A program made the position numbers and the translations under genes. The notes under the pieces are model-generated. The model made no database searches and was not told the DNA's origin. It worked only from the letters and a program-made list of their open reading frames with translations. A DNA stretch of 64,000 bases, from contig CM065886.1 of assembly GCA_033439255.1 (NCBI GenBank), positions 1,674,001 through 1,738,000 of the forward strand, given 5' to 3'. Source of the stretch: Hericium rajendrae (Eukaryota; Basidiomycota; Agaricomycetes; Russulales; Hericiaceae). This document shows positions 5,571-56,372 of this stretch, piece after piece; the first letter of the stretch is position 1; every line of letters starts with the position of its first letter.

Positions 5571-6600
5571 TCAAAATAAAGAAAGCTAGCAAAGTTTCAA
5601 ATACAAATAAACTAATACAGGCACAAGAAATGCAAGAGCTTCCTGCACACAGTCAGGTAGCTGAATACAAGCATAGTACTATAGGGTATGGCACAAAGCT
5701 GCAGGACCCAGGTGTCTCCTTAAAAGAGGGAGACCAGGGGATGCAGATTAGAGTACATCTTATCAAGTAGAAATAAACCACAAACCCGCAAGCTCGTGGG
5801 TTTATTCTGCCAGAGGAGGGAACATCATGCATTGGCACACAGAAACAAGGTGTGCATAGCTTTGTAGACATGCATGAGCTTCTCACGAAGTCGTACACGC
5901 TACGACAGGGCACTTACTGCTATCGTGCACATGACGTGGCCATTGTGGAGGCCCCATAGCATGTTTATTATAGAAAAAGAGACGATCAGTTAATTTATAG
6001 AAACGATAAAGTGCACTCATTACATACCTGTTGTCACAGCCATGCACGAATGCAAGGTGGAGGTGGGAGGCAAGGCGAGGTGAGAGCACACATCATACGA
6101 CATTTAGTCGAGTCTCATTGCGACAGGAGTCTCGTTGCTGTCACAACTAGACTTGGCCTGTCCCACCCGAGATGTTGGGGGCTTGCGAGGGCGTTGTCGT
6201 GCTTGCCGGGCACCCGTCCGTCCTTCAAGTGCACCACCTGTTGAGCTCGTATGACGTGGCGAGATCCGCACGCGGGTCGAGACAGGCGCGCGAGGGCTGG
6301 GGGCTGCGTGGCAGAGACGGAGGTGACGTGGCAGATCTGCACGAGCTGTTGGGGCTCGTGCAGGCTCTCGAGGGCATCACGGGGGGATTGTCGTAGATGC
6401 TGAACACCCGGCACCCTTGCATGAAGTGGTGGGTCCGCGCGGGGATCGGAAAAGGTGCGCGGGAGTGAATGGGGTGAGTGTGCGAGCCGCGGGAGGTGTC
6501 GGGCCTGTAGATGGCACCGTGGAGCTTCGAAGGCAGGAAGAGGGTGAGGCGAGGGCGATGTCGGGGGCACAGAGGTGACGCGGAGGTCGTGGGGTTGTGA
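5571..6600. other. CATC-C interior, left part: no recognisable gene
   Basis: Mixed-composition DNA. On the minus strand a donor-like GTATGT near 6028 with a branch-like TAACTGA near 5992 suggests a spliced transcript running left. No protein domain is recognised in any frame. Confidence 0.35.
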
Positions 6601-7610: not shown

Positions 7611-7678
7611 TTACCACCCCTTCTCTCATGCTCCATGTCCCGCACACTGCCCTCGTCATGCCAGCCTCGCCCCACCCG

Positions 7679-8600
7679 CATCAGGAACCCTTACAACTTT
7701 CTGATGATCTGATTCTATCTGATTTTGTCTGATATCAGAAAGTTTTCTGAAATCAGATATTCAGAACATCAGAAATAAGTCTGAAATCAGGACTAATTTC
7801 TGGTATCAGATAAATGATCTGTTATGCAGAATTTTTTCTGTTTTCAGACTTTTGTCTGAGATCAGATCAGTCAGATTGGTGTCAGATCAGAAATTTTAGT
7901 CAGATTAAAAATTACAGTCAGATCAGAAATTCTAGTCAGATCAGAAATAGCAGATCAGAAATTCTACTCAGATCAGAAATTCTAGCCAGATCAGAAACTC
8001 TACTTAGATCAGAAATTCTAGTCAGATCAGAAACTCTAGTCAGATCAGAGATCCTAGCCAGATCAGAAATCCTAGTCAGATCAGAAATAGCAGATCAGAA
8101 ATTCTACTCAGATTAGAAATTCTAGCCAGATCAGAAACCCTAGTCAGATCAGAGACCCTAGTCAGATCAGAAATTCTAACCAGATCAGAAACCCTAACCA
8201 GATCAGAAGATAAGTTTAGATCAGACTTTCAGATCAGATCAAATTCACACTATAACAACAAAATGCAGCTCAACATTATGCAGTAAGAGATATAAAGCTA
8301 AAAGATAGGCATAGTCAAATGAAAAGGCATAAAAGCAAAAAATAAGATCAGAAAGTATTAAAGACCTTTAGAAGTAAAGCAAAACAGAATACTTGGAGAA
8401 GATATTAAAAAGCTCTAAAAAAAAGATTAGAACTGAGTGGAGATCAAAATCAGGAGTATGATGAAACAATTCAGAAACCAAGAGATATGAGAAAGAAATA
8501 CTCTGAGAAAATATTAAAAAAAACCCTAAGAAGGAAAATCAGAACTGAGTAGTGATCAAAATCAGAGATATAATAAGACAACCCAAACATCAAGTCAGAC
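7679..8600. repeat. Left subterminal repeats of CATC-D, incl. 18-bp minisatellite
   Basis: From about 7880 to 8215 a TCTAGTCAGATCAGAAAT unit repeats with small changes (period about 18, some units shortened). Around it are single TCTGA motifs. Bases 8220-8600 are A-rich with no gene. Confidence 0.75.
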
Positions 8601-8632
8601 ATGCTCAACCACCAATTGCCAATCAATCCAAT

Positions 8633-11600
8633 CTACTTGTTGGCCAAAGTCTTGAGATTATGACGACGAGCAGTGATGGCTGATTTGCCTGGAACATCAG
8701 TAATCTTCCGCTTAGGCTGAAGCAGCTCAGATACTGCATCTGCAATAGCATTCCACTTCTCTGGAGTGAAGCCACGGATAACTTCTGCATAATCATCAGT
8801 GACATCACCCCAGATGCCAGAGGAGAACCAGCTCTTGATTCTTGTCTCTAGTTGAAGATCAGGTGAATTGGGATCAAAATACAACCACCGTGTCCAAGCA
8901 CGCTCAACCTGATGCACACCTTAGATAAGTAAAATTGAAAAGGAGAACAGACTTACTACAGCAGTAGCAAGTGCTAATGCACCAGCTGGCAAGTCACTCT
9001 GCCGAGAACTCTCAGGCATCTCTGACACACTCTGAAAATGTGCGACAGTAAATGTCTGCAAGATGACTCGAGACATGAAGGCATCCTCATAGACCTGTCA
9101 AGGATACATTAGTAGGGAAAGATAACAGTCAAAGGTCTTACCGTATGCCCTTTATTATCTTTATGTGATGTGCGAAAGATAAAGGGAAGAGTTGCACTAG
9201 CACCGGCATCAGAAAAGCCAAGCATTTTTGCAGCATAAGCTTCCTTCGCATCAAGGTCGTTGTCGGCAACAGATGCAACACTCCAAAAGTGATCAGCGAC
9301 AGCATCAACAGCTGCAGAAGCAAAGCCACGACGCCATTCATAGATCCGCTGCATCAACTAAAGCAAGAAGATATATAAGTTATTGAACACATAACAGAGA
9401 ACAACGCACCAAAGAATACACCATATCATCTTTGTCCTTGAACTCACGAGGGACAGAAGGAAAAACCAGATCCCAGAGCTCCTGAACAGGCTCAAGGAGC
9501 TCCTGCGTGTCCCATGGATCAGTGCGTGTACCCATCAAGTCCCGACACATGGGCAAGAAGATGTCTTGCCACCGCCGCAGCGTGCCCGGGGGCAGATCTG
9601 AGTTGCTAGGCCTCCTCGTCTTACTGCGTTGCGAGCCAATCATCTCAGACTCGCTGTCATCCTCTTCCTCTGCCAGACGACGAGAACGAGAACGAGGACA
9701 CGGTGTTTGCAAACTCTAACAAGGATGTCAACATTATATTCACAAAAAATTATAAGGCAGTAAGACTTACCTGCTGAGATGAAGATGCCTGAAGTCCGTG
9801 CAAACGTGCAGGTGTCACAGGCTATAAGAAAAAATATTAGATACAGACAGACAAAGCAAAAAGGAGACACATACCACTGTACGAATCTTGTTTGGTGCTG
9901 AAGACGAACGCTGCCCGGCCCGCATATCATGAGCAGGTGTCGTCTGTGGGGCTGACACGGTGCGTCGGAAAGAAGAACCATACGTTCGACGAGAACGAAC
10001 AATAACATGTTCGTTCTCGTCGTTCTCGTGGCTGAGCTGGTTGCTGGGCTGGTTTCGGGAGTCCTGGCGTGACGATGACGGAGCAGCACGAGAACGAGCT
10101 GGGTCGAACTCGTTCCCGTTGTAGGTGGACTTCATTAAGGGTTAGTTAGTGACAGCAGCAACTCCAGAGATGACGAAAACGAACCTCGTCTCGTTCGTTC
10201 TCGTCGATACGGGGTTGGCGGCGCGAGGAAGACAGTGCACGAGAACGAGCCTCATGTGGCTCGTTCTCGTTGTTGTTGCCTTGGGCCTGGCCACGGGTAT
10301 GCGATAAAGAAGCCGGAGCACGAGAATGAGCCCCACTGGGCTCGTTCTCATCGATACGAGGTTGCTGGCGCGAGGAAGAAGATGTGCCACGGGAACGAGC
10401 CCCAGTGGGCTCGTTCCCATTGACTGGCACCTGTGACTGGTGTAAGCCAAGAAAACAGGAGAGAAGACATGGACGAACCTCTCGTTCGTTCTCGTTGACA
10501 CGCGGCTGGCTGCGTTGTTTCTGGTGTGCAGATGACAATGGGGCACGAGAACGAGCCTCTTGTGGCTCGTTCTCGGCATTATCGTCCAAAGTCGAGTCGT
10601 TCGCACGTGATGAGGAAGTGGGAGCACGAGAACGAACCACAACTGGCTCGTTCTCGTTGCCATAAGACTGTTTCAATTTTAGTAAGTAATAAGAGGTAAT
10701 GATGAGAACGTACCTCGTTCTCATTAACACGGCTGTGTGTCCATGTATGCTTGCGCGCGGAAGAAGATAGCGCACGAGAACGAACACCTTGTGGCTCGTT
10801 CTCGGCGTCTTCGTGCTGGGCTCGGCCACTTGTGCGTGAAGAGGAAGTTGGAGCACGAGAACGAGCCCCAACGGGCTCGTTCTCATCGACAGAAGCCTGT
10901 GTCGAGGGATTAGCTAAGAAGAGAGAATAAATGAAGAAAATAGGACATACCTGATTCTCGTCGGCAATGCTCTGCATCCGGACTTGCTGACGACCGCGTG
11001 AGGAGGAAGATCGCGCACGAGAACGAGCACCTTGTGGCTCGTTCTCGGCGTTGTTGCCCTGGCTCCGGCCACGCACGCGTGAGGAAATCGGAGCACGAGA
11101 ACGAGTCCGATGGGTCCCATCAGACTCGTTCGTGTCGAAATGAGGCTGTCAGAAAGTTGATTAAAGACAGAACAACGAGAAATGAGGAGAACGAACCTGT
11201 AATTCGTTCTCGTCGCTAAGTCCCTGCTCAGCCCGGTCTTGCTGGTGCGCAGAAGATGACAGAGCACGAGAACGAGCCACGCGGGACTCGTTCTCGTTGC
11301 TGATGGGTTGTGCACGATCTTGCTGGCACGAAAACGAGGGTACCACACGAGAACGAGCCACGCCGGGCTCGTTCTCGTCAATGTGAGGCCGGACCTGGTG
11401 ATTCTGACGCGAAGAAGACCGGAGATCACGAGAACGAGCTTCCTGTAGCTCGTTCTCATAGGTAGGAGGTGGCTTCCGATGAATCTGACATGAAGACAAC
11501 GGGGAGCACGTGGATATTGGGTGATCCAAGGTGAAGAGGATGAGAAACGAGAGAAACGTACCTGTGGCTCCCCCTCGAGCTCCAGCTCATATTCCTGCTG

Positions 11601-13118
11601 TATTGAGGGGTGAGGAGAGCCGTCTTGGAGCTCTTCCTCGTCTTCGGGCAGAACGCGGGTGGGCAGAGAAGGCGAAGTCGAAGAGGATTTGTTGTGTTGG
11701 ACGCGGGTGGGTCGGGTGTCAAAGGTGATCATCACCTTATGTATTGTGTAGTGATATTAGTATAGTGAAAGAGCCGAAGAAGTCAACCACGCACCTGGTT
11801 GGACCTTGTAACGTCTTCGAAACCCTCGTCTGCCTCGTCGTCGCTCGATAGGTCGGAGCGTCGCTTTCCAGCTGCGCGAGTCGAGGCCGATTGACTGAGG
11901 GTCTCGTGCCTTGAAGACGACAGTTTCACTTTGATTACCTTCTCGCGCCATTGATCGGTGAGTCCCGTTCTGAATGATGAGGCCGAGGAAGAAGGGAGAC
12001 GTCGAGAACGGTGGTAAAGAGGCATTAACGAGGGGAGGGAACGAGTTCAGTGAATTATCCAAGTAAGGAAATACCACTGAGCGTCTACTACTTACTGATG
12101 GGAAAACTTCCGTGTGGAGTTGAGCACGCCTCCACCTCGAGGCTGCTGGAACCGCACTTTCCGTTTCTTGCTCGACAATACTTCTTGCTTGTCGTCTTCG
12201 ACATCGGCCATACTTGAGTCCGAGCCGACTTTTCCATCTTGCTCGTCCTCATCAGGCTGGGACGGCAGCTCGAATCCGGGTTCATCACTCTGCTCGTTTC
12301 CTTCTGCGCATTCAATTGCAGGTGAGTACGATCGATCTCCATGGTACAGTAAATGCTTCGAGGACTTACCATCATCCGTCTCTTTGTTGAAGTCACCTTG
12401 CCATCCCCCATACTCTGCATACTCCTCGTCCATCTCCAAGAAATTATCGTTGATCTCCTGCCCAATCTCCTCCAGTCGTTGGATCTTCTTATCTAGCTCC
12501 ATTATCTCTTCATCGTCCTCTATCCGATACTCACCACCTTGGTCCTCGTCCTCACCGGTCTCCGAGGACTCCTCTTCCTCCTTGCGTACTGCCTTCCGCA
12601 CAATCGGCACGGAGTCAGGGGCATCCTCTGGCTCTGTCTCACTGCCAGAAGCTCTGTTCAGTGCTTGAGGGGTGGTGGCTTTGGGATTCTCGGGTAAGTG
12701 CCATCCTTGCGACCAGATTGTAGCTTGACTCACCTGCATCCAAATCAATTACTATATTATTATCATTCTCGACCTCCATATGTTGCATTCCTCTCCCCTG
12801 GCCTGCTTGTCTTCGTGCTGTGGTATCTCGGGTGCCCTGTGACACACGACGTGGCGCGCTACGTCCGCCTTGACCACGACGTGTCATCACGACTTGTGGG
12901 ACTGTCGTTGATGGCCGCCTACGCGTTTGCATCCCCGTATCGGTGCTTGCTGCGGGCTGGGTATGACCGTTGCGTGCTGCATCTTCAGCGAGGAGCTCAA
13001 GCTCAGATCTTCGCTTCTTCCGTGGCACCTTGGGATCTTCCTCATCATCGGAGGGGGTGTTGATTGCAGGAAATTGGTGAGGATTCCGGATTCGCTTTCG
13101 AGACCTTTTCGGTGCCAT
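8633..13118 (-). CDS. Transposon accessory protein, DUF6532-like C-terminus, palindromic-repeat middle
   Basis: Starts at the ATG at 13118-13116 (MAPKRSRKRIRNPHQF) and ends with TAG at 8633-8635, in many short exons. Clear introns include 8920-8956, one of 44 nt near 12700 and one near 12330. The first part is acidic/basic and disordered. The middle (about 11465-9985) repeats ENEPxxARSRAxSSS. The last part (about 9700-8633), with WRRGFASAAVDAVADHFW, LPAGALALATAV and FSSGIWGDV, resembles DUF6532 proteins of agaricomycetes; this is from memory, not a search. It diverges from the transposase gene, so the two probably share a promoter. The role is unknown; DNA binding or chromatin targeting is a guess. 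Confidence 0.65.
9985..11465 (-). repeat. About 13 coding palindromes in the accessory gene
   Basis: Units of about 80 bp each contain an inverted repeat close to GAGAACGAGCC..GGCTCGTTCTC with a 4-9 nt loop, e.g. 9988-10022, 10239-10271, 10391-10418, 10855-10890, 11430-11457. On the coding strand each reads DENEPxxARSRA: the left arm gives the acidic half and the right arm, in shifted codons, the basic half. The plus strand encodes the same ENEP/ARSR text. Arm changes are often matched in the partner arm. Confidence 0.85.
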
Positions 13119-13401
13119 GCTGACTATGAAAGAGGTTACAGGACACTGTGAGGAAAGACTGCGATATTGTGAGCTGGTGGTACGAGTGGTTGCCAAGTCT
13201 GACTCTGCCGCAGCCACAGCTCTTTGCCGCACACGCATCGGCTATCATTGACGCACGGGATAAATCCTCCGCATACATTTGCTTGGGCACTTGTACATTC
13301 AGAAAATAAAATCTCTGTTGTCTTGTGACATTGTTATTGTCTTGTGCATTATTGTCTATCTTGGAGGGTCTTGGCTCTGTCTTTGATTGCTCTGTGTTAT
13401 A
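13119..13401. promoter_or_regulatory. Divergent promoter region of CATC-D
   Basis: The 283-bp gap between the two ATGs has a repeated TTGTCTTGTG / TTATTGTCTTGTG stretch (13318-13350) and TATAATGG overlapping the transposase start. No canonical TATA box is evident for the accessory gene. Confidence 0.45.
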
Positions 13402-16340
13402 ATGGCTCCTCGAAGTGTCCATCGTCCACGGACAATTGCTTGTCCAACTCCGACTTCTCACTCTTGTCGCCGCGGGTTCCGAACACCTTGGGGTCTCCGA
13501 CAACACATAGAGGCCATTCATCCCTTTGTATCTCGCTCTCGAGCATCATCACCACCACTTAAATTTCCGTCTCTCTTTGGTGCACAACATGACTCTGACT
13601 CTGACTCTGATATTGATATTGATATGGCTGAAGACATTCATGATGATGGTCAATTGCTCACTGAGACACACCCCATTCTTGATGGCAGACCTTGTGATAA
13701 ATATGGAAATTATATTAATTCAAATGCAGAGCCATGTGGCCTTCCTCTACCCAAAGATAAAAATGATTGGTCTCCATTTCGGAATCGAGTTGAATTTGAG
13801 ACTGCAGATTTGCTATTCCGTCGAGTTCAGATTTCTGAGGATAATCATAATGATCTTATGGACTTGTGGGCTGCTTCTCATGATGGAGAGCCTCCTTTTG
13901 CAAATCAAAAAGATTTACATGGTGTTCTTGATTCTATTACTTTGGGAGATGCACCATGGTTCCGTTTCACTGTAAATTATACTGGAAAGATTCCAAAGAA
14001 AAATCCTCCTAAATGGATGTTGGCTACATATGAAGTGTGGTATCGAGATCCACGTACAATAATAAAGAATCAGCTGAGCAACCCTGACTTTAAGGGTGAA
14101 ATTGACTATGCTCCAAAACGTCAGTTTAAAAATAACAAGAGATGCTGGACAGACTTTATGTCAGGAAACTGGGCATGGCGTCAGGCTGATAAAATTGCTG
14201 AAGATCCCAAAACTCATGGTGCCATGTTTGTGCCTCTTGTCATGGGAAGTGATAAGACTACAGTTTCAGTTGGTACAGGCAACAATGAATATTACCCACT
14301 CTATGCATCAATAGGCAATGTGCATAATAATGTTCGACGTGCTCATCGTGATGCTTTAACTGTGATGGGCTTTCTTTCTGTTGCAAGAGCAGATCGCAGA
14401 AGTAAAAAAAGTGTTGAATTTCGCAGATTTAAGAAACACCTTTTGCATGAATCCTTGAAAGCAATTTTAGGATATTTGCAACCTGGTCTAACTACACCAC
14501 AAGTGCTTTGCTGTTCTGATGGGCACTTGCGCCGTGTTATTTATGGTCTTGGTCCTTATATTGGAGATTATCTTGAGCAAGTTGATTTGTCTGCTATTGT
14601 TAAAAACTGGTGTTTTACATGCAAATGCAGACCAAAGCAACTTGATAATGATCCTGATCGTGGTCCAAGAAGTCATGAAGACACATGTGAATTGATGCAG
14701 TCTAAGACTAATCAACAACTATGGTATGAGTATGGCATAGTTCCAGGTATAATGGTTAGTACATATAATTTTATCTTGTTAAAACTTTTATCTAATAATT
14801 TATTAAGCCATTTACAGCATCCTTTGCTCGTGCTGATATTTATGAACTTCTTTCTCCTGATCTTTTGCATCAAATTATTAAAGGCACATTTCATGATCAC
14901 ATTGTGCTTTGGATTGAAAAATACCTGATAAAAGTACATGGCAAAACAGCTGGATCTGAAATTCTTGCTGAAATTGATTGTAGAATTGCTGCTGCACCTG
15001 CATTTCCAGAACTTCGTCATTTTCCAGATGGACGTGGATTTTCACAATGGACTGGTGATGACTCTAAGGCATTGATGAAAGTATTTTTGCCTGCAATTGA
15101 TGGTCTTGTTCCTCAAAGAATGGTTCGTTGTGTTCATGCACTTTTAGATTTCTGTTATCTTGCACGAAGATCAACAATTGATGAAGATACTCTTAATGAA
15201 ATAGAAGCTGCCTTAGAGATATTTTGGAAAGAAAGAGAAATATTTGTAGAAGTTGAAATATATCCAAATGGTATTTCTTTACCTCGGCAGCACTCTTTGA
15301 AACATTATCGTCATTGGATTGAAGAATTTGCAGTGCCCAATGGACTGTGTTCATCTATCACAGAGTCAAAGCATATTAGAGCTGTAAAAGAACCATGGCG
15401 TCGCTCTAGTCGATTCAATGCTCTTGGACAGATGCTTATGACAAATCAAAGACTTGACAAATTAGCAGCATGCTGGGATGATTTTGTTGACCGTGGAATG
15501 CTAAACAAACCAGTAGCTATAGAGGCAGACTCTGATGATAATTCAGTTATAGAAGATGATGAAATTAAAATTTCTGAATTGCCTTTCAATGCAGGAGATT
15601 ATAGATTTTTGCAAGATGGTGGACCTGTAGAAGGCTCTAAGATTATGGCAAATGTTAGAATGGCAAGGTCAAGAGAGAAGAGTGGCTATCCTAGAAAACT
15701 TTATAAACTTTCAAGATATATTGAGCAGCCAGATCTTCCTGAATTGATTCGTCGTTTTTTGTATGATCAGCTTGAAGCAACACCTGACAGAACATCATCA
15801 CATGTGGAACTATCTGAATGTCCAAAAGCACCACACAAAATTGATGTTTTTCATTCAGCGATTGCTACATACTATTCACCTAGTGATTTATCTGGAAGAA
15901 CAGGATTTCATCAGCATCGTATTCGATCAAATCCTAAATGGCGCAATGGTCCTGCACGTCGTGATTGTGTTTTTGTAGAAAGTAATCCTGATTTGCCAGG
16001 AATGCAAGAGCTTTTTGTTGGTCAAGTCTTGCTATTTTTCTCTTTTATACACAGACAAAAGACCTATCCATGTGCACTTATCTCATGGTTTACTACTATT
16101 GATGATAAGCCAGATGAAGACACTGGAATGTGGATTGTTGAAAGAGAAGTGGATGAAGATGGTGAAAGAGTGTGCTCTGTTGTCCACTTAGATACTATAC
16201 TTCGAAGTGCTCATCTGATTGGAGTATATGGTAATGAACATCTTCCTTCTGACTTTCATTATACTTATACTCTTGATGCATTTCACTCTTACTATGTTAA
16301 CAAATTTTCTGATCATCATGCAAATGAAATAGCCTTTTGA
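13402..16340 (+). CDS. Plavaka-type transposase
   Basis: Two exons, 13402-14754 and 14808-16340, joined across a 53-nt intron (GTTAGT..TTAAG, phase 0), give 961 residues, as expected for the family. An N-terminal C2H2-like finger (CPTP..C..H..H, residues about 10-40) and a Ser/Asp/Ile-rich linker precede the catalytic region. That region holds MGSDKTTVSVGTGNNEYYPL with a conserved Asp, then NVRRAHRDA, and LGPYIGDYLEQ with another Asp; an RNase H-like fold is known for the family. Exon 2 opens PFTASFARADIYELL, the usual continuation. The C-terminal part ending HANEIAF is shared with the pseudogene at 25143-26045. The ATG is chosen for the MAPRS start before the zinc finger. Likely mobilises the CATC elements in the nucleus. 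Confidence 0.92.
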
Positions 16341-17546
16341 TAGCATATCTTTCAGTTTTTGTACTTATATATTATCAGTAGTAATAACTGACAATCTGAG
16401 ATTTTAACTATTAGTTTATAATGTGAAGATTAAAATGTAAAGTACAATCTAAAAGTCTGATCTGGATCTATATTTCAGTCTTACTAAATCTGATATTGTC
16501 TGAGATAAAGATATAGTTCTGAGAACAATCTGACTTGAGTCTGTATCTAGTCTGAAAGTAAGTATAAATCTGACTTGAGTCTGACCCTGGTCTGAAAGTA
16601 AGTATAAATCTGACTTGAGTCTGACCCTAGTCTGAAAGTAAGTATAAATCTGACTTGAGTCTGACCCTAGTCTGAACAGTAAGTATAAATCTGATAATTT
16701 CTGAGCTCAGTCTGAGAACAGTCTGAGTATAAAGATATTATCTGATTGTTTTTGATTTTTATCTAATTTCTGTTTAGAATCTGATTGATGTCTGATTTAA
16801 CTCTGATAGATAAAGATAAATCTGATTGAGTCTGATATAGTTCTGAAACAAGTGTGTAGGTCTGAAGTAAATCTGAATATTATCTGATTGAAATCTGTCT
16901 TGCAAAGTAAAAATCTGATTATATCTGTAGTACAAAAAGAAATCTGATTATTGTCTGATTTATCTCTGACAGCAAAGCTCATATCTGAGAAGTATCTGAC
17001 TCAAGTCTGTTGATAGATCTCAAATCTGATAGTTTCTGATTCTGTCTGACAATCATATTAAAATCTGATTGTTCTCTGAAGTATATCTGATAATATGTCT
17101 TATTTCTAATTATATCTGACTATAGTCTGAATTGAATCTGATCATTTATATTATTTCTGACTAATATCTGAATTACATCTGAAAAGGTCAAATATTTCTG
17201 AAGTAATCTGATGTTAGTCTGAAACTGTTCAATATTTCTAATTTGATCTGATATTAGTCTAAGATTGTACTCAACATCTGTAATGATCTGATATCAATCT
17301 GATGTTACTCTGAGATTATATTTTAAATCTGATACAAATCTGTAAGTATATGAAGAAGATCTGATTGATATCTGATCAATTTTACAAAATCTGAATGTGT
17401 CTGATGTATATCTGACAGATCTGATATATATCTGAGAAAATTTTATCAGAAATCCAAAAATTTTCAGATGTATCAGATAATCAGATAGTTTCAGATATTT
17501 TTCAGACAGTTTCAGATGCATCAGAAAGTTGTAAGGGTTCCTGATG
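16341..17546. repeat. Right subterminal repeats of CATC-D
   Basis: A 40-bp unit (TCTGAAAGTAAGTATAAATC plus 20 more) repeats about four times in 16552-16690; scattered TCTGAT motifs follow up to the inverted end. No gene. Confidence 0.75.
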
Positions 17547-17548
17547 CG

Positions 17549-18540
17549 TGCCCCATGCCCCGCGTCCCATCTCTGCCCGTGTCATTCCCCTCGCGCGGTC
17601 TGCCCCACGTCCAGCCCACTCCTCGCTTCTCTCATCCCGCTCAAGGCCTGCACGGTTCTGCCATCGAACGTGTGGCCTCACAGTGTCGTGCATGGCGCCG
17701 ACGTCTCGCGTGTGGCTACACCGTGTCGTCGATGGTCCTTCCGTCGCACGCTGGCCTCACCGCTGTGCATATGGCTTTGTGATATCGAGCACAGCATCCG
17801 TGGTGGCCGCAGCATCGCATGCAAGGCTCCCGCGCCTTGTGCAAGCCCCGCTGCACACCAGCAGCCTCGGATCAAGCTCGAACACTACGAGAACGAGCTG
17901 TTGAGACTCTTCTCGTAGTCTATCTACATTTGTTTTCGCACCAGCAACACTGGTTCCAGCCTAGCAACAATGAGAACGAGCTGCGAGAGGCTCGTTCCCG
18001 TGCTTCCTCATCTCCCCTGCCCATCTGCCCCACGTCCTGCGCATGTCGCGCACTCCCCAGCCCTGGCCCCGGCCATCTACCGTGCACGGCACATGCTTTG
18101 TGCGTGGCACGAATGTGTCGCGCGCAGTCCTGCCAACCCACGCACGGCCTTACGGTGTTATGCAGATGTGCACGGCTCCACCGTCACATGCATAGCCTCG
18201 CCATTGCGCGCATGGCCGCGTGGTGTTGTGCACGATGTTTGCGCTTCGCACATGGCCCAGGTGTGTCCTGCACGACCTCGCAAGCGTGCAGAACTTCCAA
18301 TGGATTGATCCCGCCCGGACTTGCCTGGCCACGCCATCTCGTTCATGGACCCGCACAGACCGGCACAGTAGCCTGTGTGGTGTCTGTATGCATTTGTCCC
18401 CTCTGCGTGCATTTTCCCCCTCTCTGTGTGTGTTCGACCCTCTCCTGCCCATGCGCGTTCATCTCTTCATGCTGTTTATGCTGTCCATATGCCCTCTGCT
18501 TACAGGTAAAGTATACTCATTAGCTTAGTCTAATAGTGTA
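17549..18540 (+). other. CATC-C GC-rich interior with ENEL/ARSR hairpin relics
   Basis: Continues the DNA interrupted by CATC-D. Two palindromes lie here: CTACGAGAA / TTCTCGTAG (17885-17893, 17910-17918) and GAACGAG / CTCGTTC (17974-17997). The second reads NNENELREARSRASSS on the plus strand, matching the repeats of the CATC-D accessory gene though outside that element. The rest, Cys/Ala/Arg-rich in every frame, shows no domain. Confidence 0.5.
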
Positions 18541-22019: not shown

Positions 22020-22535
22020 TATATTAGGATGCATTTGAGAACAAGTGATTCAGTTGAGTACTGATTAAGTTAGCTGGAGTTCAAGCATTCTAGGGGGAAA
22101 ATGCAGAAACAATTCGCATTCTGCGAGTTTTGCACCGATCCTGGCGGATGAGGTACCGCCAGAAAGCTATCAATGAGTAGATTCTGATGCACTTTAGAAC
22201 GAGTAAATCGGTTGGGAATTGACTTAGTTAGCTAGGGTTCAAGCATTTTAGAAGAGGAATGAAAGAAACACTTTGCATTCTGCAAGTTCTTAACCGATTT
22301 GGATGCATAAAATATGGTAGCAAAGCTATAAGTGAGTAGATTTAGATGCATTTGAGAACGAGTAAATCGGTGGAGAATGGACTGAGTTAGCTCAAGTTCA
22401 AGTATCATAGAGAGAAAATGTAGAAATTCATTGCACTCTGTGACTTCTGCACAGATCAGGATGCAAAAAATACTGTCAGAAAGCAATAAATGAGCAGATC
22501 CAGATGCATTTGAGAACAGGTGAATTGGTCAAGAA
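22020..22535 (-). repeat. Decayed satellite, three units of about 160 bp
   Basis: On the minus strand each unit reads like TTCTCCACTGATTTACT..GTTCT..AAATGCATC..GCTTTC..TATTTTATGCATCC, alignable by eye with the 158-bp satellite at 33293-34706. Same arrays: 31500-32030, 32200-32640, 55690-56215. Confidence 0.6.
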
Positions 22536-32200: not shown

Positions 32201-32635
32201 GGTCAGTTCTTGACCAATTCACACATTCTCAAATGCATCAGAATCTACTCATTTATCGCTTTCTAGCCATATATTATGCATCTTGATCCATGCAGATCTT
32301 GCAGAATGCAAAGCATTCCTGTATTTTTCCCCCTAGTATGCTTGATCCTCAGCTAGCTCAGTCAGTTCTTGACTGATTCACTCATTCTTAGATGTATCAG
32401 AATTTACTCATTCATTGCTTTCTAGCCATATTTTATGCATTTTGATCTGTGCAGAACTCATAGAACACGAAGTACTTCTGTATTTTTTCTCCTAGTATGC
32501 TTGATTCTTAGTTATCTCAATCAATTCTCCACCGATTTACTCGTTCTCAAGTGGATCAAATACTACTCATTTATAGCTTTCGAACCATATTTTTTGCATT
32601 TTGATCCATGCAGAACTCATAGAATGTGAAGCACT
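32201..32635 (+). repeat. Decayed satellite, further units
   Basis: Units with TTCTTGACYRATTCAC, TTTATxGCTTTC, CCATATTTTATGCAT and GCAGAACTC at about 160-bp spacing. Confidence 0.55.
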
Positions 32636-32710
32636 TCATCATGGTATAGCTGTACCATGGTTGTGATCACATGAGCACTTCACCATGGTACGGCCGTACC
32701 ATGGTGGTGA
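32636..32710. repeat. Twin palindromes with CCATGGTAC cores
   Basis: CACCATGGTACGG/CCGTACCATGGTG (32681-32706) is a perfect 26-bp palindrome. A near-copy at 32636-32662 (CATGGTATAGCTGTACCATG) lies 45 bp upstream. Each is preceded by GCACTTCA or AGCACTTCA and followed by GTGATCAYRTGA. Confidence 0.75.
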
Positions 32711-32879: not shown

Positions 32880-33290
32880 AAGTACAGAAATGCCTAGAAA
32901 TCTATGATTTTGAAGACTGATTATATAATCAAAATTTCAGTTTTGAAGCACCAGCAGTAAAGTCTTGCTTTCTCATGAGCTTTACATCCTGCATGCTTGT
33001 CATGTTGGCTGCAAGGCTCGACGGGTATCTCCAAGTCATCCGCTGAGTGGTTGACGGTTTGGAACCAGGAGGTACTCGACCCGGCGGCTCACCTTGGTCG
33101 TCTTGTATGTATCTCACTTGCTGAGCTGGCAGACTAATTTACTTATAGGTCTCTAAATCTAGCACCAACTAAGGTATATTAGAGCTTATCAAAATGATAT
33201 TGATAGCTGCTTCCAGATGAGGCCTTCTGAGCTATGCTAGCCTATCTGCCTAGTTGAAAATCAACCAATTATCATTATTCTAATGATCTT
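32880..33290 (-). other. Inverted copy of the 22716-23105 region
   Basis: The minus strand has CCTATAAGTAAATTAG then the frame MRYIQDDQGEPPGRVPPGS (33117-32929, 62 codons), less damaged than the other copy. Possibly the 5' end of a lost element gene; no family recognised. Confidence 0.35.
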
Positions 33291-33292
33291 GA

Positions 33293-34706
33293 GGTAAGTC
33301 CATCAATTCTCTGCCAATTCTCTTGTTCTAAAATGTGTTGGACTCTACTGATTAATCGCTTTCCAGCCATGCTACATAGCCCCCAAACCATCCAGAACTC
33401 GAAAATCAAGACTCAAGATTGGGATTACCCCCTAGAAACCTTGATCTTGAGGTAAGTCCTTCAATTCTCCACCGATTCACTCGTTCTAAAATGCATTCAA
33501 CTCTACTGATTAATCGCTTTCCAGCCATGCTACATAGCCCCAAAACCATCCAGAACTCGAAAATCAAGACTCGAAATTGAGATTACCCCCTCAAGATCTT
33601 GACCTTGAGGTAAGTCCTTCAATTCTCCACCGATTCACTCGTTCTAAAATGCGTTCAACTCTACTGATTAATCGCTTTCCAGCCATGCTACATAGCCCCC
33701 ACACCATCCAGAACTCGAAAATCAAACCTCAAAACTGAGATCTCCCCCCCAAGATCTTGACCTTGAGATAAGTCCCTCAGTTCTTCACCGATTCACTCGT
33801 TCTAAAATGCACTAGAATGTACTAATTAATCGCTTTCCAGACATGCTACATACATCCCATGCCATCCAGAACTCGAAAATCAAAACTCGAAACTGAGATC
33901 TTCCCCCCAAGATCTTGACCTTAAGGTAAGTCTGGCAGTTCTCCACCAATTTAATTGTTCTAAAATGCGCTAGAATGTACTAATTAATCGCTCTCCAGAC
34001 ATGTTACATAGACCCCATGCCATCCAGAACTCGAAAATCAAAACTCGAAACTGAGATCTCCCCCCCAAGATCTTGACCTTAAGGTAAGTCTGGCAGTTCT
34101 CCACCGATTTAATTGTTCTAAAATGCGCTGGACTGTACTGATTAATTGCTTTCCAGCTATGCTACATAGACCCCAATCTGCCCAGAACTCGAAAATCAAA
34201 ACTCGAAACTGAGATCTCCCCCCCAAGATCTTGACCTTGAGGTAAGTCTAGCAGTTCTCCACCGATTCACTCATTCTAAATTGGGCCTGAATGTACTAAT
34301 TAATCGCTTTCCAGACATGCTACATAGACCCCATGCCATCCAGAACTCAAAAATCAAAACTCGAAACTGAGATCTCCCCCCCAAGATCTTGACCTTCAGG
34401 TAAGTCTGGCAGTTCTCCACCGATTTAATTGTTCTAAAATGCGCTGGAATGTACTGATTAATCGCTTTCCAGCCATGCTACATAGACCCCAATCTGCCCA
34501 GAACTCGAAAATCAAAACTCGAAACTGAGATCTCCCCCCCAAGATTTTGACCTTGAGGTAAGTCTGGCAGTTCTTCACTGATTTAATTGTTCTAAATTGC
34601 ATTGAAATGTACTGATTAATCGCATTCCAGACATGCTACATAGACCCCAATCTGCCCAGAACTCAAAAATCAAAACTCAAAACTGAGATCTTCCTTTCAA
34701 GATCTT
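33293..34706 (+). repeat. 158-bp satellite, nine units, each resembling intron plus exon
   Basis: GGTAAGT (or a variant) begins at 33293, 33451, 33609, 33767, 33925, 34083, 34241, 34399 and 34557, exactly 158 bp apart without indels. In each unit GTAAGT, TACTGATTAATCG and TTTCCAG are placed as donor, branch and acceptor of a 73-nt intron, leaving an 85-nt putative exon. Unit 4 has a mutated donor (GATAAGT); unit 6 reads CAATTGC-like changes only outside the signals. CATC-I interrupts the next unit. Confidence 0.9.
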
Positions 34707-53797: not shown

Positions 53798-56372
53798 CTA
53801 CGTCTGTCTACTTCAAGCTAGTACTATGATAGGACATATAGATCAACACTGGGCTATGTGAAATTTCAATCTTTCAGATGATATACACTACACCAACTCA
53901 TATATGCACTCTTGGCTCACATTTTTTGACTTATGTATACCTTTGTTGATCTACTTACACATGTATCAACCCATGAGCATCATAGCAAACTTATGTATGC
54001 TTCTACTACCTCATACATTTCCTGTTAGCCTGTGCACCTTCTATTGATTTGTATGCATTGCTGCTAGCACCAAAGGCAGAATTTAATTTCTATATTTGGA
54101 TTTTTTTTTCTGACTTTTACAAAAAATAATATAACTCATACTAGTTTTTTAATAGAGCTTATATCTCTTCAATGTATAATCTAGTCAGTATTTTTCTATT
54201 TTACATGCATTAAATACTATTAAAATTGAATTCTCACTTTCAAATCATATTTTGTATACTGGCAGAAATTAGTGACCAAATATGGCAACTACTTTCTGAT
54301 AAAATTGCCTGTCGACTAGCATGAAGGTCCAGAGTAACAAAAAACTCATACAAATGCATGAGAACATCAATTGTGCAAACATCACTTTAAGCATATAAAA
54401 AAAACACTATTTAATCTAATCTAATCATGAGTAGTTCAGCTCCTACCTCTGATAACTCTACATTTTCTGCTATGTCATATATCTTAGCACCTTATTTTAT
54501 ATATAATCTTGTGTGTTATACAGTACACACTTGTCATATCTTATTCTACTCAGTCCGATATATGATATACACTATTATATATACTTATACTATAGATACT
54601 TGTAATATCTACAATTATAGTAGTAGTCTAGTTGTATGTCTAATCAAACAAGATTCAAGATTGAATATATGATCAATGTCAAACATTGTATTGTTGAACA
54701 AAGCTAATGGCCAATCACGTGATCAATAGCAGACCTTGTTTGGCCGCACAAGGTCTGGTGGCTGTGCTTAGCTTATGTCAGCAGTAGTTGATGTTGCGCT
54801 CTCTGCTTTCTCTTCTTTTCTTCAGATAGCTTTGAAGTCAGTGTGATACTACCAGTAGTGCACACTGACTACAAGGCTTGGACACGCCCAGTTCCCATCT
54901 GCAGCGAGTTGCGGCTGAGGTGTCCAATGATGGTGTAGGGCCATCACCAACTTTCTGGATCTCTTCTGATGATGTGGCATAGAGATTGCACCATGGCCCT
55001 CTCAATACCACATGAATCAGAATGAGTGAAAGCTTGTTGGAATCAGATTTAGAATAGCTTTAGAATAGTGCCATAAACAGCAAGATAGCATGGCAAAATG
55101 CTGATCTATTGAACTATATGTCCGTGATAATGTGGCAGACTAATTGCTTTATAGCTCTGCTGATACTGCATCAATCATGATGTATGAGGGCTTATTGAAA
55201 TTGGATTTACAGTACCTTTCTAACAGTATAGTTTACAACATTATAGCACCACTTGTTGTTGAGATAGGAGACAATACTGTTTTGCTGATGTGGCACATAA
55301 ATCGAGAAATATCTCTGCTTTGAGTGATCCGATTTTCATATTCTAAATTGGATTGGAAAGATGTAATCCAAGATATTTGAACACAATTTACCGTTTGTCA
55401 ATTGATTGCTTTGTTGCAGAGCTATAAAGCAATCACTGTATACAGTGTATTGGCTCTCTAGGCGACTCATGCTTATGTAAGTGGGCGCTAAGACCTTGTT
55501 CGGCCGCACAAGGTCTTGTAGGATCACATGACCGAGTCTCAGGTCCCACTGCTACCGATAAATTGCATTGTTTTGCTCATTTTATCAATAAACAATATGT
55601 ACATTTGTTTGCTGTGTATTATTTTAGTGGCTGTATCTTTCTGTGAGCAGTAAATTGTGTTGGAGACCGGCTTTCTGATATATTAGGATGCATTTGAGAA
55701 CAAGTGAATCGGCTGAGTACTGATTAAGTTAGCTGGAGTTCAAACATTCTAGGGGGAAAATGCAGAAACAATTCGCATTCTGCGAGTGTTGCACCGATCC
55801 TAATGCATGAGGTACCGTCAGAAAGCTATCAATAAGTAGATTCTGATGCACTTTAGAACGAGTAAATCGGTTGGGAATTGACTTAGTTAGCTAGGGTTCA
55901 AGCATTTTAGAAGAGGAATGAAAGAAACACTTTGCATTCTGCAAGTTCTTAACTGATTTGGATGCATAAAATATGGTAGCAAAGCTATAAGTGAGTAGAT
56001 TTAGATGCATTTGAGAACAAGTAAATCAGTGGAGAATGCACTGAGTTAGCTCAAGTTCAAGTGTCATAGGGGGAAAATGTAGAAATCCATTGCACTCTGT
56101 GACTTCTGCACAGATCAGGATGCAAAAAATACTGTCAGAAAGCAATAAATGAGCAGATCCAGATGCATTTGAGAACAGGTGAATTGGTTGAGAACTGATC
56201 AAGTTACATTAAATCAACAAAGTTTGGCCAGAGCTGGAGTTGAACCTGCAAACTCATCAGATTGAAGATGTGTGATTATATAAGCCAACTGCCTAATGGG
56301 CATAGTCATCGTTTTGGTGTCGTTTTCACTATGAAAAGGTGGTATAGAGTAAACGATTCTAAGGAATCGTAA
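53798..56372. repeat. AT-rich tail of the copia B unit, copy of 20139-22715
   Basis: Nearly identical to the first copy, including the hairpin-ended element (about 54717-55550) and the decayed satellite (55690-56215), ending with the tRNA-like module and ACGATTC hairpin (56215-56372). No gene called. Confidence 0.85.

Follow-up and report, generated by a model that had tools for sequence, protein, structure and literature searches.

Palindromic repeats that are read as part of a protein have been described earlier in bacteria and in some eukaryotic microbes, and the main text of the paper on one such family, PARCEL, mentions stem-loops and calls the significance of the symmetry unclear, without using the words "hairpin", "synonymous" or "compensatory" (PMC2996958). 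Among DNA transposons, PlavakaB elements are recognised by the termini CATCA..TGATG, a 2- or 3-bp TSD and a Plavaka transposase, and Plavaka has been grouped with EnSpm in the CMCT clade (PMC12730594). The main text of this second paper contains neither "hairpin" nor "accessory" and has "palindrom" once, and no account of the gene or the array analysed here was found in it; a search of the open-access literature likewise returned no paper that we recognised as describing the array. The array lies in a stretch of 64,000 nucleotides, here called the window (contig 9, 1674001-1738000), and palindromic coding repeats such as PARCEL and the Rickettsia palindromes are its nearest known kind.

The host element and its accessory gene

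The main features of the element are the following.

7679..17546, no strand assigned: PlavakaB element of 9.87 kb, delimited by a second near-identical copy and a 100% inverted repeat
7679-7706 and 17519-17546: TIRs of 28 bp (CATCAGGAACCCTTACAACTTTCTGATG), inverted repeat 100%
7677-7678 and 17547-17548: TSD CG, flanking the window copy of PlavakaB
13387..14928, plus strand: Plavaka transposase, first large ORF (PF18759, E 4.7e-101)
8633..12025, minus strand: accessory gene, modelled with 13 exons and 917 aa, all introns in phase 0, with an open frame through all 13 exons
9991..11457, minus strand: hairpin array of 27-codon units ENEPxxxARSRAxSSSxRQ..., seen from palindromes, frame and folding

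The termini of the element, CATCAGG...CCTGATG, agree with the CATCA..TGATG of the published definition, its transposase carries the Plavaka domain (PF18759), and a TSD of 2 bp was found in both of the two copies examined (CG/CG here and CA/CA around the second copy); judged by sequence, the element matches PlavakaB as defined in the main text of PMC12730594. The second copy lies on the same contig with an identity of 98.9% over 8.1 kb and of 99.2-99.6% over the remainder, and its transposase domain has three stops where that of the window copy has none. The transposase frame is probably continued in the ORF at 14865-16340. Motifs of the type TCTGA/TCAGA are abundant at both ends of the element (7707-8208 and 16400-17546), where they look like candidate subterminal transposase-binding repeats. 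Satellite-like repeats of 158-159 bp occur in the window in blocks at 22028-22517, 32213-32637, 33284-34706 and 55687-56206. Just beyond the right end of the element, at 17889-17999, there are two more palindromes of the same kind as those of the array (the second is ENELREARSRASSS on the plus strand); the sequence around them is weakly similar to two related loci, L025 and L027, and they are perhaps a fragment of another accessory gene.

The accessory gene is transcribed divergently from the transposase. Its splice sites were picked by eye, and the gene may have extra N-terminal exons reaching to about 13238. The C-terminus of the protein gives a 73% match to Hericium alpestre P0002 and a faint one to DUF6532 (22.2 bits, below the curated cut-off of 24), and among the best 8000 candidates scored the homologues of the C-terminal part were three proteins, all from H. 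alpestre. The repeat region had no homologue among the 7999 best candidates and no match to Pfam or NCBIfam at E up to 1, and the homologue search of viral contigs gave no match. The predicted structure of P0002 is of low confidence (mean pLDDT 35.8, pTM 0.20). Several related copies of the gene contain stop codons. An antisense gene over the array was considered and rejected, the longest listed plus-strand ORF there being of 93 aa; a first-pass annotation of this DNA had pointed out that the opposite strand encodes the same text, which is correct but a trivial consequence of a palindrome.

The hairpin array and its relatives

The array consists of 15 in-register palindromes (14 of 28 nt and one of 25 nt) and one unit of 37 nt, with two shorter hairpins at exon-intron junctions besides. 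It lies 2.3-3.8 kb from the left end of the element, and its units are spaced at 81 bp, i.e., 27 codons, except where an intron intervenes. The first-pass annotation had reported about thirteen units of some 80 bp, reading ENEP in the left arm and ARSR in the right; the frame, on the minus strand, was right and the count was too low.

11430..11457, minus strand: hairpin 1, pair 11/18 T-A, stem of 11, -17.5 kcal/mol
11349..11376, minus strand: hairpin 2, -19.0 kcal/mol
11268..11295, minus strand: hairpin 3, T10-G19 wobble
11187..11211, minus strand: hairpin 4, right arm is an intron 5' splice site (CAG|GTTCGTTCTC), pair 9/20 A-T
11097..11133, minus strand: hairpin 5, an inverted repeat with a longer stem of 15 bp, -25.4 kcal/mol
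11019..11046, minus strand: hairpin 6
10857..10884, minus strand: hairpin 7, -23.7 kcal/mol
10776..10803, minus strand: hairpin 8, G9-T20 wobble
10702..10724, minus strand: junction hairpin ATGAGAACG-AGGTA-CGTTCTCAT of 9 bp, intron starting inside it at 10713, -10.5 kcal/mol, z -4.8; also present at locus L032
10628..10655, minus strand: hairpin 9, G9-T20 wobble
10547..10574, minus strand: hairpin 10
10473..10489, minus strand: junction hairpin ACGAAC-GAGAG-GTTCGT of 6 bp, intron starting at 10478, -6.3 kcal/mol, z -3.2
10391..10418, minus strand: hairpin 11, G-C in place of A-T at pair 2/27, -24.8 kcal/mol
10322..10349, minus strand: hairpin 12, with a single mismatch (C6-A23, in a CpG) that is paired in L032
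10241..10268, minus strand: hairpin 13
10175..10202, minus strand: hairpin 14, intron starting inside it at 10184, pair 9/20 A-T, pair 3/26 G-T
10090..10117, minus strand: hairpin 15, G2-T27 wobble
9991..10018, minus strand: hairpin 16, in the terminal unit ENEHVIVRSR, with double changes at pairs 9/20 and 11/18; this unit reads EHEHVIVRAR at locus L024 and in H. alpestre P0002

Three sets of covarying arms that had been singled out beforehand were all found in place: GGGAACGAGCCC/GGGCTCGTTCCC at 10391-10418, GAGCT/AGCTC inside 11430-11457, and GAACA/TGTTC inside 9987-10022, the last within 15-nt arms of 100% identity. Compared with shuffles, the folding of eight of the 16 main hairpins gave z values of -2.9 to -7.1. 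Tandem Repeats Finder has no listing over the array, and a search with GAGAACGAG, allowing one mismatch, found no paired arms within the element outside the array and no match near the TIRs.

Genome-wide, the pattern GAACGAG-N4-16-CTCGTTC has 120 matches, which include an unrelated dispersed repeat, GAACGAGAGAGTATCGCTCGTTC, against 6 when the pattern is read backwards. This dispersed palindrome and close variants of it were seen at L009, L010, L013, L039 and other places. Palindromes of the array type, which the first-pass annotation had proposed to look for in related accessory genes, are present in 12 of the 17 stretches that were read around pattern hits; two of the 12 (L025 and L029) hold fragments only, seven also have accessory C-terminal exons, and the stretches L036-L040 contain no array of this kind. 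Exon-level searches of the genome gave at least 93 matches to the accessory gene and at least 132 to the transposase. The 142 candidate units comprised 123 of 28 nt and 19 of 25 nt. Seven of the former were dropped (four from L029, two from L025 and a false one at L024 4203), which left 116 in-frame 28-nt units from 11 loci, 80 of them distinct, as the analysed set; the 25-nt units were analysed separately, and after removal of two from L029, 15 of the remaining 17 start an intron. Three more array loci, known from pattern hits only, lie at C10:81334-82256, C12:968699-968973 and C12:994221-997689 and stand outside the counts. A three-unit array fragment at L031 4858-5047 and L035 4171-4360, on contigs C7 and C12, is surrounded by 5 kb that are 99.8% identical, and is perhaps a captured piece moving with something else. 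Downstream of the array in the related accessory gene of L024, at 5895-5924, lies a hairpin whose 13-bp arms pair perfectly around a loop of 4 nt.

Silent sites, paired changes and intronic arms

Synonymous codon choice in the arms is close to fixed. The codon-blind protein search found 120 units, three of them absent from the DNA-found set (among these, L030 2430 is not unit-like and L033 5524 is an offset reading), and 118 of the 120 were used for codon counts. For Ser, TCT accounts for 111 of 115 right-arm codons and for 90 of 255 in the SSS run just downstream; for Arg, CGT accounts for 92 of 92 arm codons and 19 of 55 later ones; for Ala, GCT accounts for 96 of 97 arm codons and 39 of 61 comparison codons. 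All nine loci with at least 10 units show the same direction for Ser and Arg; the Ala comparison by locus excludes L024 and L026. Detection bias was rejected as the cause of this freeze, since the codon-blind search gives the same result. The commonest silent arm change, AAT for AAC (19/117), is a CpG C>T change that leaves a T-G pair; the others are GAA for GAG (1/97 and 6/112), TCC for TCT (4/115), GCC (1/98) and CGC (1/93), and in the TCC cases, as in several of those with GAA, the opposite arm carries the matching change. Units that keep the peptide and lose pairing by silent changes would have spoken against the original inference of a conserved hairpin; the codon-blind search turned up few of them, and that inference survives. 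In parsimony counts of change events on a tree built from the short flanks only, non-CpG changes number 0-2 per third-position column of the arms against 5-24 per flank column (p = 1.7e-4), and transitions of the mismatch type (T>C/G>A) at arm third positions number 5 against 48.7 expected from the flanks. Relative to the flanks the arms change at a rate of about 0.4 at CpG and of 0.07-0.19 elsewhere. The arm sequence is the same across units and the loops vary; the rate of change in loops and flanks is about 4 to 15 times that in the stem.

Changes in the two arms are also matched. Over twelve pairs in the 80 distinct units, 91.4% of the cells are paired and 42 are doubly changed against 18.0 after shuffling (0/500), and at the eight non-CpG pairs (2-5, 8-11) pairing amounts to 96.4% against 36-53% with slid partners, and the doubly changed cells number 22, where shuffling gives 3.5 (0/500). 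Because relatedness can inflate covariation, one unit per flank cluster was kept, and the doubly changed cells then number 13 (52 clusters), 13 (39) and 11 (23) against 1.7-2.0 shuffled, 0/2000 in each case. Examples are GGG/CCC at pair 2/27, GAGTCC/GGACTC at pair 10/19 and, in L024, GAGCACGAACA/TGTTCGTGCTC at pair 4/25, where the peptide is EHEHVIVRAR. Independence of the substitutions in the two arms, the other outcome that would have spoken against the inference, does not hold at the non-CpG pairs, which lie above both the shuffled and the slid controls. Unpaired cells among the 80 units are found at pair 12/17 in 37, at pair 11/18 in 18 and at the CpG pairs in 8, 10 and 5, and the RNAalifold covariation term is small (-0.57).

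The CpG pairs (1, 6 and 7) serve as a control. Their single-sided decay events on the tree are 20 to wobble and 19 to mismatch; besides these there are 4 compensated double events, 2 double events that end in a mismatch and 7 reversions to Watson-Crick, and doubly changed units are near expectation (3 vs 1.8, 4 vs 2.3 and 0 vs 0.4). Recent CpG decay, which presumably took place in silenced copies, ignores pairing, and older change respects it. Conversion between arms should mirror old and recent change alike and is therefore disfavoured by decay that is not mirrored. The first-pass annotation had left the choice between selection and arm-to-arm conversion: the silent-site freeze and the covariation speak for the former, and the unmirrored decay and the constancy of the arms across units speak against the latter.

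Five introns interrupt the window array, four of which start in the right arm of a hairpin (11196, 10713, 10478 and 10184) and one, at 10950, outside any hairpin. In 11 distinct intron-start hairpins the 66 non-CpG cells comprise 60 Watson-Crick pairs, 6 G-U pairs and 0 mismatches, with the qualification that these sequences are related, which makes for few independent cases, and that the 5' splice site constrains part of the intronic arm. The right arms are thus complementary even where they are intronic and untranslated. Coding units carry CAG or CAA at the position of the intron acceptor in 74 of 116 cases, which makes the coding and intronic halves look interchangeable.

A distant locus on contig 1 (L043), with 45-56% identity in the C-terminal exons and no tandem repeat found by Tandem Repeats Finder, holds five units, which were anchored on the downstream PSSSS motif and not on the arms. 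In register 47 of 55 cells are paired against 36-44% when slid, with poor pairing in two of the five units, and there are five hairpins of at least 10 pairs and at most one mismatch against 0-3 in 60 shuffles. Two of the three EDE units have P where ENE units have S, as a change from A-T to G-C at pair 4/25 requires, and the third has S, giving G-U; of the two units with N, that at 938 has S and that at 218 has P, a mismatch. These units indicate that L043 keeps pairing with a partly different sequence. The silent-site freeze, the doubly changed pairs, the intronic arms and the decay of CpGs agree in showing selection on the nucleic acid; that pairing is kept, and that the protein alone does not explain the arms, is supported by the sequence comparisons.

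Explanations for the array

We lean, if only slightly, towards a reading in which the sense transcript carries an array of stem-loops of 25-37 nt; these would be under purifying and compensatory nucleic-acid selection and would likely act on pre-mRNA processing. Selection would hold the pairing and the stem sequence together, laid over the coding frame, and the folded molecule would be RNA rather than DNA. The stem-loops would act before or during splicing, because a hairpin with an intronic right arm cannot exist in the mature mRNA, and they may be a repeated binding or splice-gating element that controls processing of the accessory transcript. The mirror-charged peptide would follow from the arms, as in this register the purine-rich GAG AAC GAG is translated into the acidic ENE and its complement into the basic RSR. 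In favour of sense RNA, the array, judged by GAGAACGAG-like arms, is confined to the transcribed gene. One-sided non-CpG changes in the outer arm (pairs 2-5, 8 and 9) give a sense-strand G-U in 17 distinct cells and an unpaired cell in 3 (8 against 2 as tree events), and protein selection would push the opposite way, because changes to G-U alter the protein and those to an unpaired cell are mostly silent. This lean comes from a small number of events and is weak, because the inner pairs 10 and 11 add 20 unpaired cells against 9 G-U (5 and 5 as events), and it was not accepted as proof of RNA since it fails once they are counted. Against sense RNA, the stem sequence is conserved beyond the need of a pure fold, as for a dyad DNA site, and there are also the open pairs 11 and 12 and the CpG pairs, the small RNAalifold term, the intron at 10950 and the stops in copies. 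A search of Rfam over 8500-12200 gave two matches, both far below the gathering score (21.7 vs 64 and 21.5 vs 90). On these comparisons RNA is favoured over DNA only moderately.

The alternative that survives best, though we regard it as doubtful, is that of sites acting at the DNA level, either dyad binding sites for a dimeric element protein or cruciform-forming sequences, for which the transcribed strand would be irrelevant. Both half-sites have a conserved stem sequence, the sense-strand lean vanishes with the inner pairs counted, and Plavaka has been placed with EnSpm in the CMCT clade (PMC12730594), all of which would suit such sites. Unit-specific double changes off the consensus within one array (2/27, 4/25, 9/20, 10/19 and 11/18) would be unexpected for a single protein; furthermore, the outer-arm single changes lean to sense-strand G-U, and the array is internal while the ends of the element carry the TCTGA/TCAGA repeats instead.

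Returning to stem-loops in the transcript, a more speculative extension, which we regard as unlikely, makes the 81-nt unit an interchangeable exon/intron module with a structure-gated donor. The second half of the unit would be ARSR...SSS..Q when coding (with GC at the donor position and frequently CAG or CAA where the acceptor would lie) and an intron when GT...AG. The donor would lie inside the hairpin with the left arm always exonic, and the chain of modules would set the splicing of the accessory transcript or its silencing, by which spliceosome-linked silencing is meant.

Splicing signals without a role for pairing, i.e., an exonic enhancer and a 5' splice site duplicated as a unit, with pairing incidental, seem improbable to us. 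Intron-type and coding-type units do share their register and 5' end (GTTCGTTCTC vs GCTCGTTCTC), and CAG or CAA stands at the acceptor position in 74 of 116 units, but this account predicts neither the double compensatory changes nor pairing in intron-free units. We give equally little credence to templated correction from arm to arm, by quasi-palindrome template switching or conversion and with no selection: some doubles are single steps on the tree, e.g., AT to GC at 2/27, but CpG decay went uncorrected (20 wobble and 19 mismatch events against 4 compensated doubles, with 7 reversions), and such correction would not hold one stem sequence while loops and flanks change 4 to 15 times faster. 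Least likely of all is selection on the protein for a disordered repeat of alternating acidic and basic blocks, the palindromes being left over from a recent founder unit, for although the peptide is in frame across loci and the window copy has an open frame of 917 aa, silent sites are frozen in the arms only, right arms are complementary even where intronic, and paired exchanges of residues (N/H together with S/A, and N/D partly together with S/P) track base pairing.

Comparison with known systems

The symmetry of the array is open to testing by evolution, with separate controls in the silent sites, the double changes, the intronic arms and the decay of CpGs. If the preferred reading of stem-loops in the transcript holds, this would be a DNA transposon of a fungus whose protein code is overlaid with a repeated structured element, and a system for asking about the effects of hairpins on splicing, RNA stability, silencing or transposition. 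The TnpA protein of En/Spm binds inverted motifs that are subterminal, noncoding and repeated in both orientations. The likeness to En/Spm lies in a related transposon clade, a second protein and repeated motifs, and the difference is that the TnpA motifs are subterminal and noncoding whereas the window array is internal, coding and partly intronic. Like the array, PARCEL consists of tandem coding repeats with dyad symmetry, of 25 aa or 75 nt compared with 27 aa or 81 nt here, and in some taxa these lie in ORFs tied to mobile elements (PMC2996958). In the main text of that paper, PARCEL repeats have a 25-residue DUF285/TIGR02167 motif, whereas no family match was found here, and their palindromes vary in length and phase (PMC2996958); unlike PARCEL as described there, the present array has introns, a charged repeat, a silent-site freeze and covariation. 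The palindromic elements of Rickettsia and Wolbachia, as treated in the same text, are likewise palindromes read in frame inside proteins, but they are stand-alone in-frame insertions in assorted housekeeping genes (PMC2996958), whereas the palindromes described here form a tandem array in the gene family of one transposon type.
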